Assembly (NCBI RefSeq): GCF_015277775.1
Contig: NZ_CP063849.1
Span: 434,001 to 498,000, forward strand
From: Paludibaculum fermentans
GTDB taxonomy: Bacteria > Acidobacteriota > Terriglobia > Bryobacterales > Bryobacteraceae
Direction: 5' to 3'
DNA: 64,000 nt
A program made the translations under genes and the position numbers. The number at the start of each line of letters is the position of its first letter. Position 1 is the first letter of the stretch. Shown here in pieces: positions 6,063 through 17,349 of the stretch. The notes below the pieces were generated by a model, which saw only the letters and a list, made by a program, of their open reading frames with translations, did not search any database and was not told the DNA's origin.

Positions 6063-8138
6063 ATGCAGCAGGAAGTGTTTCACTTTGGTCCGTTCTCGGC
6101 CGACGCACAGTTACGTACGTTAGCGCGGGACGGCGCACCTGTTGCGGTAACCCCCAAAGTGTTCGACGCCCTGCTCATCTTTCTGAAGAGCGGCAACCAG
6201 GTGGTGACGCGGGAGGAGCTCTGCGCCCAGCTTTGGCCGGGCCAGGTGGTGACGGACGCCAACGTCAATCAGCACATCTCCATGCTGAGGAAAGCGCTGG
6301 GCGACGGCGGCTCCGGCGAGAGGTATCTGGTGACGCTGCCGGGCCGCGGTTACCAGTGGGTGGTACCCGTGAGCCTGCCCCACTCTCACGAAACCGTCAA
6401 TGTCGCCTGGAGGCTGGCCGCCCTGGCGGCGGGAGTGATGCTGATGCTGGGTGCCCTGGCCTACTGGAGCCAGCGGCGGTCCACCGCCCAGATCGAGTTC
6501 GGCCAACGGCACTCGCTCACCCGCCTGCCGGGCAGTGAGTACCAGCCCGCGCTCACTCGTGACGGAGCCAAAGTCGCCTTCATTTGGGATCAGGATGGGG
6601 CGAACAATCCGGCCGTTTACGTCCGCGGCCCGGAAGACGACGAGCCGCGCAAGGTAAGTGAGGGCCACTACGAGCACAGCAGTCCTGCCTGGTCGCCCGA
6701 CGGCCGCCACCTGGCCTACATCCGTTACGAAGCCTCGTCCCTCCGCGTGGTAGTCACGCCCGAGCGCGGCGGCGCTGAGCGGGAGATCGTCCAACTCTAC
6801 CGCTCTCGCTATGGACTCAACTGCCGCCACCTGGACTGGTCGCCAGACGGGACAAAGCTCGTCGTCGATGACAAGGAATCTTCCTCCCAGGCATTCGGCC
6901 TGTTCCTGGTCGACATCGCCACCGGCAGCCGCACCCGCCTCACCCGGCCGCCCGACGCGATCATCGGCGACGTGGATCCGCGCTTCTCGCCCGATGGCCA
7001 ACGCGTCTCTTTTGTGCGAATGGCCGACCGCTTCCGCCAGGAACTCTGGATCACCGATCTCTCCGGCGGCAACGTGAAGCAACTCACCTCCGCCGATCGC
7101 ACCATCAGCGGGCATGACTGGTCACCCGATGGCCGCCGTCTGTACTTTGGTTCCAACCGGCGCCGTGAGTTCGAGGTCTGGTCCGCCAACGTGGATACGG
7201 GCGCCGTGCAGGGGACGAATCTCTCCAGCGCCAACCCGATGCAGCTCTCGGTGGGCCGCTCCGGCGAGCGTATGGTTTACTCCGACCTGCAGCAGGATCT
7301 GAACATCTGGAAGCTGGATCTGGAGGCGGCCCGCCGCGGGACCAACGGCTGGAGCCGCGTCATCTCTTCCACTGGCGAGGAGATCCTGCCTTTCGTCAGT
7401 CCCGATGGCAAGCGGCTCTGCTACCGGTCCGACCGGTCAGGCGAAGGACAGCTCTGGGTGAGTGGTGTCGATGGCGGGCGCGCCATGCAGATCACCCGGG
7501 GCGCCATCCATCCGGTGGCCTGCCGCTGGTCCCCCGACAGCAGCAAGGTGGTCTTCAACGACGCCCTTACGCAGCGCCTCTATGTGGTGGATGCCGAAGG
7601 CGGATCGCCGCAGATTCTGGGAGGACCGGAGGTGGTCGGCGGCCACCCGATGTTCGATGCCGAGGGCCGCAACCTCTTGTATAACGCCCAGGGCTCGATC
7701 TGGCGGGTTCCGGTGGGGTCGATGACCGGCACCAGGATCGTCGCGGCTGACGGCGTTCACCAGAAGGTGCTTGCTCCCGATGGACGCAGCCTCTATTTCA
7801 CGCGCGCCCGCACCGGGACCACAATCTGGCGTTACGACCTCGTGACCAGGGCGACAACCCAGATTCTGGACGGGCTGTTGGCCGGCTACTGGGGTGCCTG
7901 GACTCCGGGCCGTGATGGCATCTACCTGCTGGCCGAGAGCAGCCAGCCCACCGGCGGCGCGGCGGTCGTCTTTCATCCCCTGAACGGAGGGCCGAACAAG
8001 GAGATCTCCAGATTCCCCGGCCAGTTGCCGCCCATCGGCACATCAAGTTGGTCCCTCTCGCCGGATGAGCGCTATCTCTATTGCGTCCGTGTCGATGTCT
8101 CGCACAGCGACCTCACCCAGGTGGAAGGTGTCCGCTGA
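6063..8138 (+). CDS. CadC-like transmembrane regulator: OmpR-type winged helix plus TolB-like propeller
   Basis: A 691-residue one-component regulator. Residues about 5-103 form an OmpR/PhoB-type winged helix (KVFDALLIFLKSGNQVVTREEL, then NQHISMLRKALGD and the terminal hairpin LVTLPGRGYQWV). A single membrane helix follows at about 118-140 (WRLAALAAGVMLMLGALAYW). The rest, presumably periplasmic, holds at least seven PD40/WD40-like blades with the recurring core WSPDGxxLxY, for example SPAWSPDGRHLAYI and RFSPDGQRVSFV. This CadC-like topology suggests sensing outside the membrane and direct DNA binding inside, without phosphorylation, since no receiver domain is present. It is divergent from the receptor/sulfatase operon and is its most likely regulator. 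No strong ribosome-binding site precedes the ATG. Confidence 0.88.
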   Translation: MQQEVFHFGPFSADAQLRTLARDGAPVAVTPKVFDALLIFLKSGNQVVTREELCAQLWPGQVVTDANVNQHISMLRKALGDGGSGERYLVTLPGRGYQWVVPVSLPHSHETVNVAWRLAALAAGVMLMLGALAYWSQRRSTAQIEFGQRHSLTRLPGSEYQPALTRDGAKVAFIWDQDGANNPAVYVRGPEDDEPRKVSEGHYEHSSPAWSPDGRHLAYIRYEASSLRVVVTPERGGAEREIVQLYRSRYGLNCRHLDWSPDGTKLVVDDKESSSQAFGLFLVDIATGSRTRLTRPPDAIIGDVDPRFSPDGQRVSFVRMADRFRQELWITDLSGGNVKQLTSADRTISGHDWSPDGRRLYFGSNRRREFEVWSANVDTGAVQGTNLSSANPMQLSVGRSGERMVYSDLQQDLNIWKLDLEAARRGTNGWSRVISSTGEEILPFVSPDGKRLCYRSDRSGEGQLWVSGVDGGRAMQITRGAIHPVACRWSPDSSKVVFNDALTQRLYVVDAEGGSPQILGGPEVVGGHPMFDAEGRNLLYNAQGSIWRVPVGSMTGTRIVAADGVHQKVLAPDGRSLYFTRARTGTTIWRYDLVTRATTQILDGLLAGYWGAWTPGRDGIYLLAESSQPTGGAAVVFHPLNGGPNKEISRFPGQLPPIGTSSWSLSPDERYLYCVRVDVSHSDLTQVEGVR

Positions 8139-12167: not shown

Positions 12168-12437
12168 TGCATCAGAGAAGAAGTTACATCGAGGCGGGCG
12201 AACGGTTTCGCTGTGTAGGATTCAGGCTGCCCTCTTACGGCGCAGATGGGGTAGTCTGGACGGAGTTGAATCTAGAGCCGGACGCTGGGAATTTACAAAT
12301 CTGAAGGCCCTCCGGCCCGCCTGCCTGTTGCAGGGGCGAAGAAATGGCGATACAACAGTGACACCACTTTGTTTTTTTCTTGCGAGGCGGTGTCGATTTC
12401 AGCCACTCGCGTTCGACGACTTAAAGGAGACCCTGGG
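12168..12437. other. Intergenic region with no gene recognised
   Basis: Together with the operator this is the non-coding stretch between the divergent padR and YCII-like genes. I see no open frame with a credible start, no tRNA or known riboswitch, and no terminator. It must contain the promoter of the downstream plus-strand gene; AAAGGAG at about 12423-12429 is that gene's ribosome-binding site. Confidence 0.5.
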
Positions 12438-12797
12438 ATGAAGTACATGTTGCTGATTTATGCGGAGGAACACGTTTACACCGAACCGGAGCGTGTGGAG
12501 TGCTACGGCGAGTCTTCCAATCTCGCCCACCAGCTCAGCACCAACGGCCAGTATGTGAGCGCCTCTCCCCTGCAGTCGGTTTCCACCGCGGTGAGTGTCC
12601 GCGTTCGTGACGGCAAACGGCTGGTCACCGACGGCCCGTTTGCTGAAACGAGAGAACAATTGGGCGGCTACTTCATGGTGGAAGCCAAGAATCAGGACGA
12701 AGCCATCGATATCGCCAGCCGGATCCCCGGCGCCCGCAAGGGGACTGTCGAAGTCAGGCCGGTGGTGGAACTCCAGGGATTGCCGGCACAGGAATAA
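12438..12797 (+). CDS. YCII-related (DGPF-motif) protein
   Basis: A 119-residue protein of the YciI-like ferredoxin-fold family. It opens with MKYMLLIYAEE and contains the family's DGPFAETREQLGGYFMVE block, followed by DEAIDIASRIPGA and a C-terminal VEVRPVVEL strand. The start at ATG 12438 is supported by AAAGGAG 8-10 bases upstream. In many bacteria these proteins are encoded next to ECF sigma factors, but no sigma-factor gene is adjacent here. It is followed after 77 bases by the propeller and MoaD-like genes on the same strand. The biochemical role of the DGPF family is not established. Confidence 0.87.
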   Translation: MKYMLLIYAEEHVYTEPERVECYGESSNLAHQLSTNGQYVSASPLQSVSTAVSVRVRDGKRLVTDGPFAETREQLGGYFMVEAKNQDEAIDIASRIPGARKGTVEVRPVVELQGLPAQE

Positions 12798-12874: not shown

Positions 12875-13990
12875 ATGAGCAGCGTACGAGTACTGGTTGG
12901 CACACGCAAAGGTGCCTTTGTTCTGGAATCGGATGCGAAGCGCGAAAAGTGGGATGTCAGCGGCCCGCATTTCGCGGGCTGGGAGATCTATCACGTCAAG
13001 GGATCCCCTGTCGATCCCAACCGGATCTACGCCTCGCAGTCCAGCGGCTGGTTCGGCCAGCTGATTCAGCGATCAGACGATGGCGGCAAGACCTGGTCCC
13101 CCATGGACAACAAGTTTGTCTACGACGGCGTGCCCGGCACCCACCAGTGGTACGACGGCACTCCGCACCCCTGGGAGTTCAAGCGCGTCTGGCACCTGGA
13201 GCCGTCGCTTACCGACGCTGAAACTGTCTACGCCGGCGTCGAAGATGCTGCCCTGTTCAAATCGAGCGATGGCGGCAAGTCGTGGGCCGAACTCTCGGGC
13301 CTGCGTGAACACGGCACCGGACCCAAGTGGCAGCCCGGCGCGGGCGGCATGTGCCTGCATACGATTGTTCTCGACAAGAACGATCCGGGCCGCATCTACA
13401 TCGCCATTTCGGCCGCGGGCGCCTTCCGCACCGACGATGGCGGTGTTACGTGGAAGCCCATCAACCAGGGACTGCGTTCACAGTACATTCCCGATCCCAA
13501 GGCGGAAGTGGGCCACTGTGTCCATCGCATCGCCATGCACCCGTCACGTCCTGATACGCTCTTCATGCAGAAGCATTGGGACGTGATGCGCAGCGACAAC
13601 GCCGGCGACATGTGGCAGGAGGTCAGCGGCAACCTGCCCACCGACTTCGGTTTTGTCATCGACGTCCACGCCCACGAACCGGAGACCATCTACGTAGTGC
13701 CCATCAAGAGCGACTCCGAACATTTCCCCATCGACGGCAAGCTGCAGGTCTTCCGCAGCCGTACCGGCGGCAATGAATGGGAAGCGCTCACCAAGGGCCT
13801 GCCGCAGAGTGACTGCTATGTCAACGTGCTGCGCGATGCCATGGCCGTCGACAAGCTCGACCAGTGCGGCGTCTATTTCGGGACCACCGGCGGCCAGGTT
13901 TACGCCTCCAACAATGCCGGTGACAGCTGGGCGCCCATCGTCCGCGATTTGCCCGCGGTCCTGTCCGTGGAGGTCCAGACGCTGTCATGA
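12875..13990 (+). CDS. BNR/Asp-box beta-propeller protein (sialidase-like fold)
   Basis: A 371-residue beta-propeller with several Asp-box repeats: [22 protein letters not shown] and [11 protein letters not shown], plus a later SNNAGDSW version. This is the fold of sialidases and of photosystem II assembly factor Ycf48. I do not see the sialidase FRIP motif or the Arg triad with confidence, so hydrolase activity is unsupported. The ATG has an AAAGGAG site and there is no signal peptide, so the protein is probably cytoplasmic. Its stop overlaps the start of the MoaD/ThiS gene by 4 bases (ATGA), implying translational coupling and a shared function with a ubiquitin-fold partner. Confidence 0.85.
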
Positions 13991-14283
13991 TCCGCGTCGA
14001 ACTGCCCGCCCATCTCCGCAACCTGGCGGGCATTCAAGGCGAACTGCAACTCGATCTGGCCGGCCCGGTTACCATCCGGGCCGTGCTGGACGAGTTGGAG
14101 CGGCGCTACCCCATGCTCGCCGGCACGATGCGCGACCACGTGACCCGGAAACGCCGCGATTTCCTGCGTTTCTTCGCCTGTGAAGAAGACTGGTCGCACG
14201 AGCCGCACGACAAGCCCTTGCCCGAGACAGTAGCCACCGGCAGGGAGCCGCTCATCATCCTGGGCGCCATCGCCGGCGGGTAG
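13987..14283 (+). CDS. MoaD/ThiS-family ubiquitin-fold protein
   Basis: A 98-residue beta-grasp protein. It begins with [14 protein letters not shown], continues with [18 protein letters not shown] and ends in the exposed Gly-Gly (LGAIAGG) that E1-like enzymes adenylate in MoaD, ThiS and related sulfur carriers. An insert around residues 50-70 ([18 protein letters not shown]) makes it longer than typical MoaD. No moa or thi genes are nearby; instead the start overlaps the propeller gene by 4 bases. It could be a sulfur carrier or a protein modifier for a specific process. The function is unresolved. Confidence 0.85.
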
Positions 14284-15180: not shown

Positions 15181-17349
15181 ATGCATAGCCTTTTCGTCAT
15201 TGGCGATGTAGGCGGTCCGGAACAGTTCCACCTGGGCGACGAGGCGATGCTCGAGGCCAACCTCCTCACCCTGGCGCGGCTCATCCCTAATGTCCAATTT
15301 ACGGTTGCCTCAGCGGACCCCGGCTGGTCCAGCCAGCGCTACCGTGTGTCCTCAGTCAAATCCCCTCTCGAACGCCCGATTGAGAAAGCCCTGGCTGGCA
15401 CGCACGGAGTTGTCGTGTCGGGTGGCGGGAACCTGTGTTCCACCTGGCCCGACAAGGTCATGGATCGAATCGCGCTGCTGGAGCATGCTCAGGCGTTGAA
15501 CCTGCCCACAGTCGTCCTGGGACAAATGATCGGACCGCACTTGGCCGCGGACCAGGAACGCCTGCTCTCCGCTCCACTGCGGAAGTGCGATTGGGTGGGT
15601 GTCCGCGACGCGGCCTCTGCCTCCATCGCCTTGCGGCTGGGCGTGGATCCGGCACGCCTGCACAGGCAGATGGACGATGCCTACTTCCTCGAGCCGCTCC
15701 CTGTGGAGGACGAGCGCGCGGAACCGCTGCGCAGTCTGCCGCAACCCTGGATCCTGGTCACGCTGGATCCCTCTTTTGCCACTGAACATCGGGCAAAGAC
15801 GCTGGAGGTGCTCGCCAGCCAGCTCGACGGCCTGGCCGCCAGCCTGGGCGCCTCGCTGATCTTTGTTCCACACGTCGGCGGGCTGCCGGGCAGCGGCGAT
15901 GCCGAGGCCGGCCAGGCCCTGCGCTCCAGGATGCGGGCCGATCTCCTGCTGCTGAACCCCTGGGCACCGCGCGAAGCTGTATGGCTCACCGGTCAGGCGG
16001 CCATGGTGGTCTCGGCCCGTTATCACCCCCTGGTGTTCGCCACCGCGTGCGGCGTCCCGGCCTTGGGTATCACCGTCGATGAGTACACACGGACCAAGCA
16101 CCACGGCGCCCTGGCGTCTGCCGGCATCGAGGGGTGGTGCCTGTCCGCGGCCGAAGTGGAGCGCGGAGCCCTGCTGCCGCTCGCCCTGGAGCTGTGGGAC
16201 CACAGGGCCGGTCTTCGCAAGCGTCTGGCGGATGCTTCCCAACGGGCCTGGCAACACGAGAAGCAACGCTGGGACGGAATCCTCCGTGCGTTGCGCCTCG
16301 CCCCTGCTTCTGAAAGCTGGCCGGCCCCACCGGCGATTCATGTGCCTCCGGATCGCGACGGGCGCCCCACCCAGCTCATCAGCAGCGACCAATGGAGGGA
16401 ATACGACCGCAACGGTTATCTCCGCCTGGGCCGGCTGTTGGATGATGACCAACTAGCCCGGCTGCGCGAGCGGCTGGACGGCATCATGCTCGGCCAGGTG
16501 CGCTATCCCACCCTCCATATGCAGTTGGACACGGGTGGGGCGTATGAGGATCTACCGGATCCGGTGGCCGGCCACTCCGGCGCCACGCTCGCTTACCGCA
16601 AGATCCAGGGCCTGGAGGCCGATCCGCTGATTCTGGAGTTGGTGCGGCGCGATCTCTTCCGCGAGATTTGCGCGCGGCACTACGGCGCTCACGTCCCCAT
16701 CTCGATTTTCCGCGTGATGATGATGAACAAACCGGCCGGCCAGGGCACCTACCTCCCCTGGCACCAGGACGCCGGCGACGTGTGGAAGCTCGATCGCGAT
16801 CCCCTGGTCACCTCGTGGATTGCGCTCGATCCGGCCACACGCCTCAACGGCTGCGTGCAGGTCATTCCCGGCTCGCACCACCTCGGCCTGCTGAGCAAGA
16901 ACGGCAGCACTCTGAGTCCGGAACACGTGGAGCAGTACTGTCCCGCAGACCGCATCGAGCATCTCGAACTGGAGCCCGGCGAAGGACTGCTGCTGCACAA
17001 CTGGCTGCTGCATCGCAGCGAAGTGAACCGCACCGGAATACCGCGGCGCGCGCTGAGCGCCTGCTATATGGACGGTCGAACCCTGGGGACGCTCACCGGC
17101 ACGCGCTACCCGGTTATCTTCGGCGCCCACGAGGACACCGAAACCGCCATGCCCTTTCTGCGCGGACTGCTGGCGGAATCCGCCCAGTTGCGCGAGAGGG
17201 CCACGGAAGCCGAACGGTACGCCCGCAGCCTGCTCGAGGACAATCAGCGCCGCGAGGAAATGCGGCTGGAATCAGAACGCTATGCGAAGTCGCTGGAAGC
17301 TGAACTGAAGAAGATTCGTGCGCCCCGCCGCATGTTCTTCCTTCGTTGA
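15181..17349 (+). CDS. Polysaccharide pyruvyltransferase-like and PhyH dioxygenase fusion
   Basis: A 722-residue two-domain protein. Residues 1 to about 370 match the polysaccharide pyruvyltransferase fold (IGDVGG...HLGDEAMLEANL, VVVSGGGNLCSTWP, VVSARYHPLVFA), an activity that adds pyruvate ketals from PEP to sugars. Residues about 398-640 are a phytanoyl-CoA dioxygenase-type Fe(II)/2-oxoglutarate domain with the HxD pair at His528/Asp530 (LPWHQDAGDVW), GCVQVIPGSHHLG and the distal ligand at His611 (LLHRSEVN). About 60 residues of charged coiled coil end the protein. The frame is continuous, so the fusion is real rather than a frameshift. The stop TGA shares its A with the ATG of the next gene. 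Expected role: pyruvylation and oxidation of a surface glycan. The combination is unusual. Confidence 0.85.
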   Translation: MHSLFVIGDVGGPEQFHLGDEAMLEANLLTLARLIPNVQFTVASADPGWSSQRYRVSSVKSPLERPIEKALAGTHGVVVSGGGNLCSTWPDKVMDRIALLEHAQALNLPTVVLGQMIGPHLAADQERLLSAPLRKCDWVGVRDAASASIALRLGVDPARLHRQMDDAYFLEPLPVEDERAEPLRSLPQPWILVTLDPSFATEHRAKTLEVLASQLDGLAASLGASLIFVPHVGGLPGSGDAEAGQALRSRMRADLLLLNPWAPREAVWLTGQAAMVVSARYHPLVFATACGVPALGITVDEYTRTKHHGALASAGIEGWCLSAAEVERGALLPLALELWDHRAGLRKRLADASQRAWQHEKQRWDGILRALRLAPASESWPAPPAIHVPPDRDGRPTQLISSDQWREYDRNGYLRLGRLLDDDQLARLRERLDGIMLGQVRYPTLHMQLDTGGAYEDLPDPVAGHSGATLAYRKIQGLEADPLILELVRRDLFREICARHYGAHVPISIFRVMMMNKPAGQGTYLPWHQDAGDVWKLDRDPLVTSWIALDPATRLNGCVQVIPGSHHLGLLSKNGSTLSPEHVEQYCPADRIEHLELEPGEGLLLHNWLLHRSEVNRTGIPRRALSACYMDGRTLGTLTGTRYPVIFGAHEDTETAMPFLRGLLAESAQLRERATEAERYARSLLEDNQRREEMRLESERYAKSLEAELKKIRAPRRMFFLR

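Follow-up and report, generated by a model that had tools for sequence, protein, structure and literature searches.

What does a small ubiquitin-fold protein of the MoaD/ThiS kind do when the gene that adjoins its own encodes an Asp-box beta-propeller? The question is raised by two genes (Table 1) in a window of 64,000 nucleotides from Paludibaculum fermentans, whose genome measures 9.5 Mb in two contigs. A preliminary description of this window had claimed that the stop of the propeller gene and the start of the small gene overlap by four bases and that the small protein, here called the carrier, ends in Gly-Gly. Both claims were borne out, the shared bases being ATGA and the last residues AIAGG. 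It had also claimed that molybdopterin and thiamine genes are absent nearby, which held for the neighbouring genes that were scanned; the genome's only match to MoaE lies ~1.05 Mb from the pair and the gene adjoining the carrier is the propeller. A molybdopterin role as the primary reading was rejected because MoaE is so distant. Beyond the YciI gene, a Pfam scan of the neighbours found PadR and MacB/FtsX permease genes further upstream, with a methyltransferase gene and two larger genes with glycan-type domains downstream of the pair. At 15181-17349, adjoining a glycosyltransferase gene, lies a 722-aa ORF that combines two domains, polysaccharide pyruvyl transferase (PF04230) at residues 18-300 and phytanoyl-CoA dioxygenase (PF05721) at residues 408-624, and at positions 6063-8138 a winged-helix transcription regulator domain is fused to a WD40-like (PD40) propeller.

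Table 1. Coordinates in the window of the propeller-carrier pair, its conserved residues and the gene upstream
Feature	Position	Strand	Remarks
YciI (YCII-related) gene	12435..12797	+	PF03795, E 4.3e-21; directly upstream of the propeller, 77-base gap
Asp-box beta-propeller gene	12875..13990	+	371 aa ORF, seven-bladed, family of PDB 3b7f
His162 codon, invariant	13358..13360	+	start of model strand 161-166
His217 codon, invariant	13523..13525	+	start of model strand 216-221
Gln232-x-His234 codons	13568..13576	+	weighted conservation 1.00 and 0.99; turn between model strands 229-233 and 236-240
Arg320 codon, invariant	13832..13834	+	just before a model strand
ATGA, propeller stop/carrier start overlap	13987..13990	+	4 bases common to both ORFs
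MoaD/CysO/SAMP1-like ubiquitin-fold gene	13987..14283	+	98 aa ORF
Gly97-Gly98 codons, carrier C terminus	14275..14280	+	protein ends Ala-Ile-Ala-Gly-Gly

Identification of the carrier rests on family models, a profile and a predicted structure. Against Pfam ThiS (cut-off 22.5 bits) the window carrier is sub-threshold at 18.8 bits, and three other partners scored 23.8, 27.4 and 39.1 and a carrier fused to its propeller (locus L203) 42.2, all above the cut-off. The SAMP1 model NCBIfam NF041918 has a cut-off of 60 bits, which is above the 15.9 bits of the window carrier and the 40.9, 55.1 and 56.5 bits of three other partners. An AlphaFold2 model of the carrier gave a confident ubiquitin-like fold (pLDDT 87.4) whose best PDB match was SAMP1 (3po0, TM 0.75, E 3.9e-5), with CysO and MoaD also among the best. 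A profile built from 42 partners (A4) matched 4n6e_B first among PDB chains (E 4.5e-17) and 3dwg_C second (E 2.7e-16), by their titles a BexX/CysO complex and a sulfur carrier complex of cysteine biosynthesis, followed by a Thermus MoaD-related protein and SAMP1-type chains. The small protein is predicted to have a beta-grasp fold of the ThiS/MoaD type, and by fold and profile matches it is closest to SAMP1 and CysO.

The larger protein matched the Pfam families BNR/Asp-box and Sortilin-Vps10. A phmmer search of PDB returned 3b7f, titled Reut_B4987 of Ralstonia eutropha JMP134, with an E value of 1.6e-67, the runner-up standing at 1.2e-5. Its AlphaFold2 model (pLDDT 83.6) aligned with 3b7f over 353 residues (Z 45.7, rmsd 2.4, 34-35% identity), and the next structural matches, GH74 propellers and 6-phosphogluconolactonase, were at about Z 28. 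The propeller is a member of the 3b7f family, full-length in both sequence and fold. In an excerpt of a paper on Asp-box propellers 3b7f is given as 'Not known' (PMC2716378), so that it yields no mechanism. No signal peptide was seen by eye, and the propeller looks cytosolic. RIP is the motif of the sialidases; these letters are absent from the sequence, in agreement with the preliminary description, BNR_2 scored 11.6 bits against a cut-off of 31.4 and no sialidase-type family passes its cut-off among the Pfam matches listed. A GH33 sialidase was rejected on the missing RIP and the BNR_2 score. GH74 xyloglucanases have two propellers in tandem, and their active cleft lies between the two; this identity was rejected because there is a single propeller of 371 aa and no second one.

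The expectation that the pair would recur in other phyla proved correct. In an automated tally a same-strand MoaD-like gene adjoins the propeller in 193 of 216 propeller loci, a count that scores L203 as solo when it is really fused and the carrier as absent at L020, where it was found by tblastn and the locus has an N-run, and at L052, where the first carrier codons precede the contig end. Such a pairing greatly exceeds what chance would give. Adjacency reaches well beyond the close relatives, and the pair is present in cultured Acidobacteriota, Actinomycetota, Chloroflexota and Pseudomonadota, four phyla in all, as well as in MAGs labelled as many further groups, labels which may be wrong. 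Among 61 related genomes, that of the window included, a strong carrier match (E <=1e-3) was found in 26 and a propeller adjoined it in all 26; four weak carrier matches (L002, L028-L030) had no adjoining propeller. The two genes overlap or are closely spaced in most of the related loci. The closest 80 of at least 562 loci, with one genome per species, had a carrier in 75 by automated tally. Among those scored as carrier-less L052 has a carrier start, three end 14-186 bases from the propeller, and only at L091 is the carrier missing despite ample flank. The genomes with the pair in these 80 loci include those of cultured Granulicella, Edaphobacter, Pseudonocardia, Amycolatopsis and Oscillochloris.

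Even samples of two phyla showed how common the propeller is. At E <=1e-40 it was present in about a quarter of the sampled genomes, mostly with the carrier adjoining: 77 of 296 in the phylum of an Amycolatopsis and 104 of 377 in that of a MAG titled Proteobacteria. The best 30 loci by score and 20 hand-picked loci were opened for each phylum, with 20 extra in the Amycolatopsis phylum. The carrier adjoins the propeller in 49 of the 50 opened in the Proteobacteria-titled phylum, and 59 of the 70 in the Amycolatopsis phylum are paired, of which 11 are fusions and 48 have two distinct genes. Plasmid records gave 41 propeller matches at E <=1e-5; coverage is at least 80% in 27, and many of the 41 are distant BNR proteins. 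Ten plasmid regions were opened and the carrier stood beside the propeller in five. It lies upstream in Mitsuaria, Cupriavidus metallidurans, a P. aeruginosa plasmid and Burkholderia stagnalis, and downstream at a Nonomuraea plasmid-record locus. The five regions in which no adjoining carrier was found came from three Rhodobacterales, for which the carrier search covered plasmid records, and from Halocatena and Roseomonas, the last two with distant propellers.

Propellers with no carrier detected as neighbour were found in large actinomycete genomes, perhaps of Streptomyces, on the three Rhodobacterales plasmids and at L091 and L190. The solo actinomycete propellers (L152, L155-L157, L159, L160, L194 and L198) have unchanged invariant residues. 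At L159 and L160 the gene next to the propeller looks by eye like a uracil-DNA glycosylase. A narrow profile of window-like carriers (A2) found none at E <=0.01 in any of the eight large solo actinomycete genomes; the wide profile A4 gave two matches in each of the same eight, so the negative result with A2 does not prove that a carrier is missing there. Literature searches, in which few queries joined MoaD with a sialidase term, found no paper on a MoaD-like/propeller pair. The terms sialidase, BNR and propeller are absent from the portions available of Iyer et al. 2006 (PMC1779556) and of PMC2948915, and the word 'propeller' occurs once in that of PMC1949818. The pair is a real and widespread two-part module, the carrier being of a known kind and its partner new.

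Which parts of the two proteins are held constant was then a matter of alignment. The conservation, distance and tree sets were cleared of propellers that had stops or unknown residues or fell short of 330 residues, which left 211 of the 216 loci. Among 192 paired propellers (effective number 78.5) weighted conservation was 1.00 for Thr10, His162, Ser179, His217, Gln232 and Arg320, 0.99 for His234, 0.97 for Lys12 and 0.94 for Trp106. The strand map of the AlphaFold2 model places Trp106, His162, His217 and Arg320 at the start of strands taken as inner, and Thr10, Lys12, Ser179, Gln232 and His234 in the turns that connect the two following strands. In propellers the inner-strand starts and those turns share one face around the channel. 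The three invariant histidines may bind a metal. Twenty loci with no carrier detected as neighbour keep the conserved residues equally; the true solos among them number 15, since four stop at a contig end and L203 encodes a fusion. That the pocket residues are kept equally in the solos points to the pocket as the core function, with the carrier as a usual and not an absolute companion.

Gly-Gly is kept in the homologues of the carrier as well. It is present in 189 of 190 closed-frame partners, at the C-terminal end in 172 and followed by 1-25 residues in 17, although the use of a profile to find these partners biases the set towards the expected kind, so that a drifted partner without the tail could count as absent. 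Neither circumstance that was to speak against the preliminary description, an adjacency confined to close relatives or a loss of Gly-Gly from most homologues, was encountered. The sole partner without Gly-Gly, from a Nonomuraea (L038:7084-7395), ends ...VLPALA, through either loss or a sequence error. Weighted conservation in the carrier was 99.3% for each of the two glycines, 98.6% for Arg56 and 97.2% for Pro42.

The order of the two genes varies from lineage to lineage. A FastTree tree was built from 207 propellers; it left out L052, L070, L079 and L106 (contig ends) and has many weak branches. On it the fewest changes give at least three switches of order with the pair kept, and at most seven changes for the solo state, an upper count since L203 was scored as solo. 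Over 186 pairs the carrier and propeller distance matrices correlated with r 0.955, and none of 300 shuffles exceeded 0.125; this shows co-inheritance and not by itself contact. Mean-field DCA of the 186 pairs (effective number ~95) gave P91-M71 (2.79), P204-M95 (1.83) and P186-M80 (1.71) as top inter-chain couplings, compared with a best of 1.51 in five shuffles within 50%-identity clusters, which also destroy finer ancestry. The top columns track subfamilies and partly gaps, and coevolution is here inseparable from shared ancestry.

In 11 actinomycete genomes (loci L203, L278-L286 and L296) the two proteins are encoded by one open frame, in the order carrier, Ser-Gly-Gly, short linker, propeller. 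Such natural fusions go further than the preliminary description had foreseen. Pairwise identity among the fused carrier parts is 40-98%, Gly-Gly is kept in all 11, and the fused rows need two changes on a tree of 74. The linker holds no Met in ten of the fusions and one in L282. The one fused ORF that was scanned, that of L203, matched Pfam ThiS above its cut-off together with BNR. One fusion came from the first 50 loci of the Amycolatopsis phylum and ten from the last 20, which were non-random, eight of them having been chosen for equal open-frame length reported by both matches. The genomes with fusions, mostly small, are probably MAGs; a sequencing fault is unlikely since 11 different frames run without a stop. 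MoaX is the closest known layout to these fusions. In the available part of its description this mycobacterial MoaD-MoaE fusion is active only once it has been cut after Gly82 (PMC4326299).

A carrier with a Gly-Gly tail raises the matter of an activating enzyme. The idea of an E1-like or JAMM gene linked to the pair stood in so far as both exist beside it, but such linkage is rare, an E1 being found at one of 216 loci (L073) and a JAMM gene at two (L073 and L232) in a neighbour search in which many loci had a flank of ~1.5 kb. At L073 propeller, carrier and E1-rhodanese are consecutive, with the JAMM gene upstream on the other strand, and the E1 is 63% identical to that of the window genome. 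In the window genome no E1 was found beside the pair; genes for JAMM, a CysO-like carrier and an E1-rhodanese follow one another near C1:7087200-7089030, at a distance of 6.6 Mb on the contig. This CysO-like carrier (L191:7670-7948), directly preceded by the JAMM gene, ends GGAA and so would need trimming too. All 20 pair genomes examined had an E1, as did 11 of 14 controls, so that its presence discriminates little. A second set, consisting of the window genome, the 11 with fusions and eight with solos, again had an E1 in 20 of 20, in pieces or partial in G217 and G346, and a JAMM gene in 20 of 20, with a weak match in G346, compared with six of the 14 controls. That one E1 can serve several carriers is known from MoeZR, which sulfurates MoaD1, MoaD2 and CysO (excerpt of PMC3227635), and MoeZ also works with BexX (excerpt of PMC5321127).

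The surroundings of the pair are recurrent in part. In 604 kb of flanks from the closest 80 of at least 562 loci there were 14 YciI genes, spread over 11 loci, where 0.36 would be expected from their frequency in 20 such genomes (69 in ~114.8 Mb) or 0.82 from the density in the window genome. The excess beside the pair is ~39-fold, or 17-fold by the latter density. A YciI gene next to the pair is recurrent, not obligatory. VOC-, HxlR-, DoxX- and ECF sigma-like genes, named by eye, recur in the flanks as well, and no sulfur-metabolism gene was recognised by eye among the recurrent neighbour clusters. In a few loci a gene lies between propeller and carrier, for example a DoxX-like gene at L120 and a VOC-like gene at L116. 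The neighbours suggest a stress or detoxification setting. At L060:6152-6681 two small DUF433/PIN-like genes, which by eye resemble a toxin-antitoxin system, are inserted between propeller and carrier.

The data show the pair and its conservation, the order swaps, the fusions, the Gly-Gly tail, E1 and JAMM genes in the genomes and, by prediction, the fold. The best-supported one, ahead of conjugation and of docking, combines a sulfur carrier with a propeller enzyme, and we put at about even the chance that the best explanation, a ubiquitin-like sulfur carrier activated by an E1 in trans and serving a dedicated propeller enzyme, is right. The carrier would be of the CysO/MoaD/SAMP1 kind, with a C-terminal Gly that becomes adenylated and thiocarboxylated, most likely by the genome's MoeZ-like E1-rhodanese, which would be shared and is encoded 6.6 Mb away. 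Its tail would dock on the propeller face that carries His162, His217, Gln232, His234, Arg320 and Lys12. The propeller would then be the acceptor-side enzyme, its pocket having a presumed catalytic role, and the sulfur would pass to a small molecule as substrate. The propeller may also act without the carrier, since the solos keep the same invariant residues. The fuller statement, that the Asp-box propeller is itself a widespread sulfur acceptor with a His/Arg/Gln pocket and a shared MoeZ-type E1, and that the precursors of some actinomycetes are cut by a JAMM-type protease after Gly-Gly in the manner of MoaX, is plausible at somewhat short of an even chance.

Other explanations have to be weighed against this one. 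The carrier might be a scaffold or regulator whose tail binds the propeller non-covalently, with Gly-Gly never activated, and the propeller an independent enzyme or a peptide-binding chaperone. Solo propellers with unchanged invariants speak for it, Asp-box propellers of the YCF48 kind have, by their structure titles, been solved with bound peptide, and 17 of 190 partners and all 11 fusions have residues after Gly-Gly. However, conservation of both glycines at ~99% (weighted), together with the retention of Gly-Gly at 11 of 11 fusion junctions, is more than docking alone seems to need, and this explanation is in our view rather unlikely. We think it unlikelier still that the pair serves protein conjugation, in which Gly-Gly would be joined to target lysines as in SAMP1, the propeller would be an adaptor or the main target and JAMM would carry out removal. 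The invariants of the propeller look like a pocket and not like a varied recognition surface, the nearest relatives by profile are the CysO sulfur carriers and no E2- or E3-like gene was recognised by eye; these points have to be set against a top single structural match to SAMP1, two of three partners close to the SAMP1 cut-off (55.1 and 56.5 of 60 bits, the third at 40.9), JAMM in 20 of 20 genomes tested and fusions that resemble those of ubiquitin precursors. Also in favour of conjugation, three Thermococcus Ubls are both conjugated and active in sulfur biosynthesis (PMC11323500).

Sulfur might instead be removed: the propeller would relieve a toxic or damaged molecule of sulfur, or of a thiolated group, with transfer to or from the carrier, and the pair would belong to a stress cluster together with genes of the YciI, VOC, HxlR, DoxX and ECF sigma types. 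The 14 YciI genes where 0.36 or 0.82 were expected agree with such a cluster, as does the recurrence, by eye, of VOC-like, HxlR-like and DoxX-like genes, but stress-type neighbours accompany a minority of loci (YciI 11 of 80) and their own roles are mostly obscure, which makes sulfur removal distinctly improbable. Least probable by far is that the two genes are hitch-hikers, inherited together as neighbours and sharing no function; co-inheritance alone would give matching trees, but it sits badly with an order that flips while the pair is kept, with joint presence in distant phyla and with fusions. An artefact of gene order, or a single inherited operon, was rejected on the order flips and the fusions.

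A sulfur carrier serving a propeller enzyme can be set beside systems that are already known. To our knowledge only a handful of acceptor enzymes have been described for ubiquitin-like sulfur carriers. A propeller acceptor, if true, would add a partner of a new kind, and genes annotated as 'exo-alpha-sialidase' and the like would have to be read differently; the solved but unexplained structure 3b7f belongs to the same propeller family. Sialidases (GH33) and GH74 enzymes share the Asp-box propeller fold, but the protein described here has no RIP, one propeller and, by eye, no signal peptide. SAMP1 is the closest fold to the carrier; conjugates are known for SAMP1, whereas for the carrier they are hypothetical, and the window protein reaches 15.9 of the 60 bits that the SAMP1 model asks for. 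In Mycobacterium CysO works with MoeZ, CysM and Mec+ in cysteine synthesis. The pair resembles this system in the family of the carrier by profile (3dwg_C, E 2.7e-16), in the Gly-Gly tail and in having carrier and acceptor enzyme as separate proteins, and the E1-rhodanese is shared there according to an excerpt of PMC3227635. It differs in that the acceptor would be an Asp-box propeller, and the window genome has its own operon of JAMM, CysO-like carrier and E1 elsewhere. The 2-thiosugar synthase BexX with CysO provides the best PDB profile match (4n6e_B) and relies on a household E1 (excerpt of PMC5321127), but BexX borrows household carriers whereas here a carrier gene is tied to the propeller. 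MoaX of M. tuberculosis likewise has an internal Gly-Gly carrier fused to an acceptor enzyme; MoaE, however, is no propeller, and MoaX is cut after Gly-Gly (excerpt of PMC4326299), whereas for the propeller fusions such a cut is a prediction. The division of labour that is proposed here between carrier and propeller is that of MoaD/MoaE, ThiS/ThiG, CysO/CysM and CysO/BexX.
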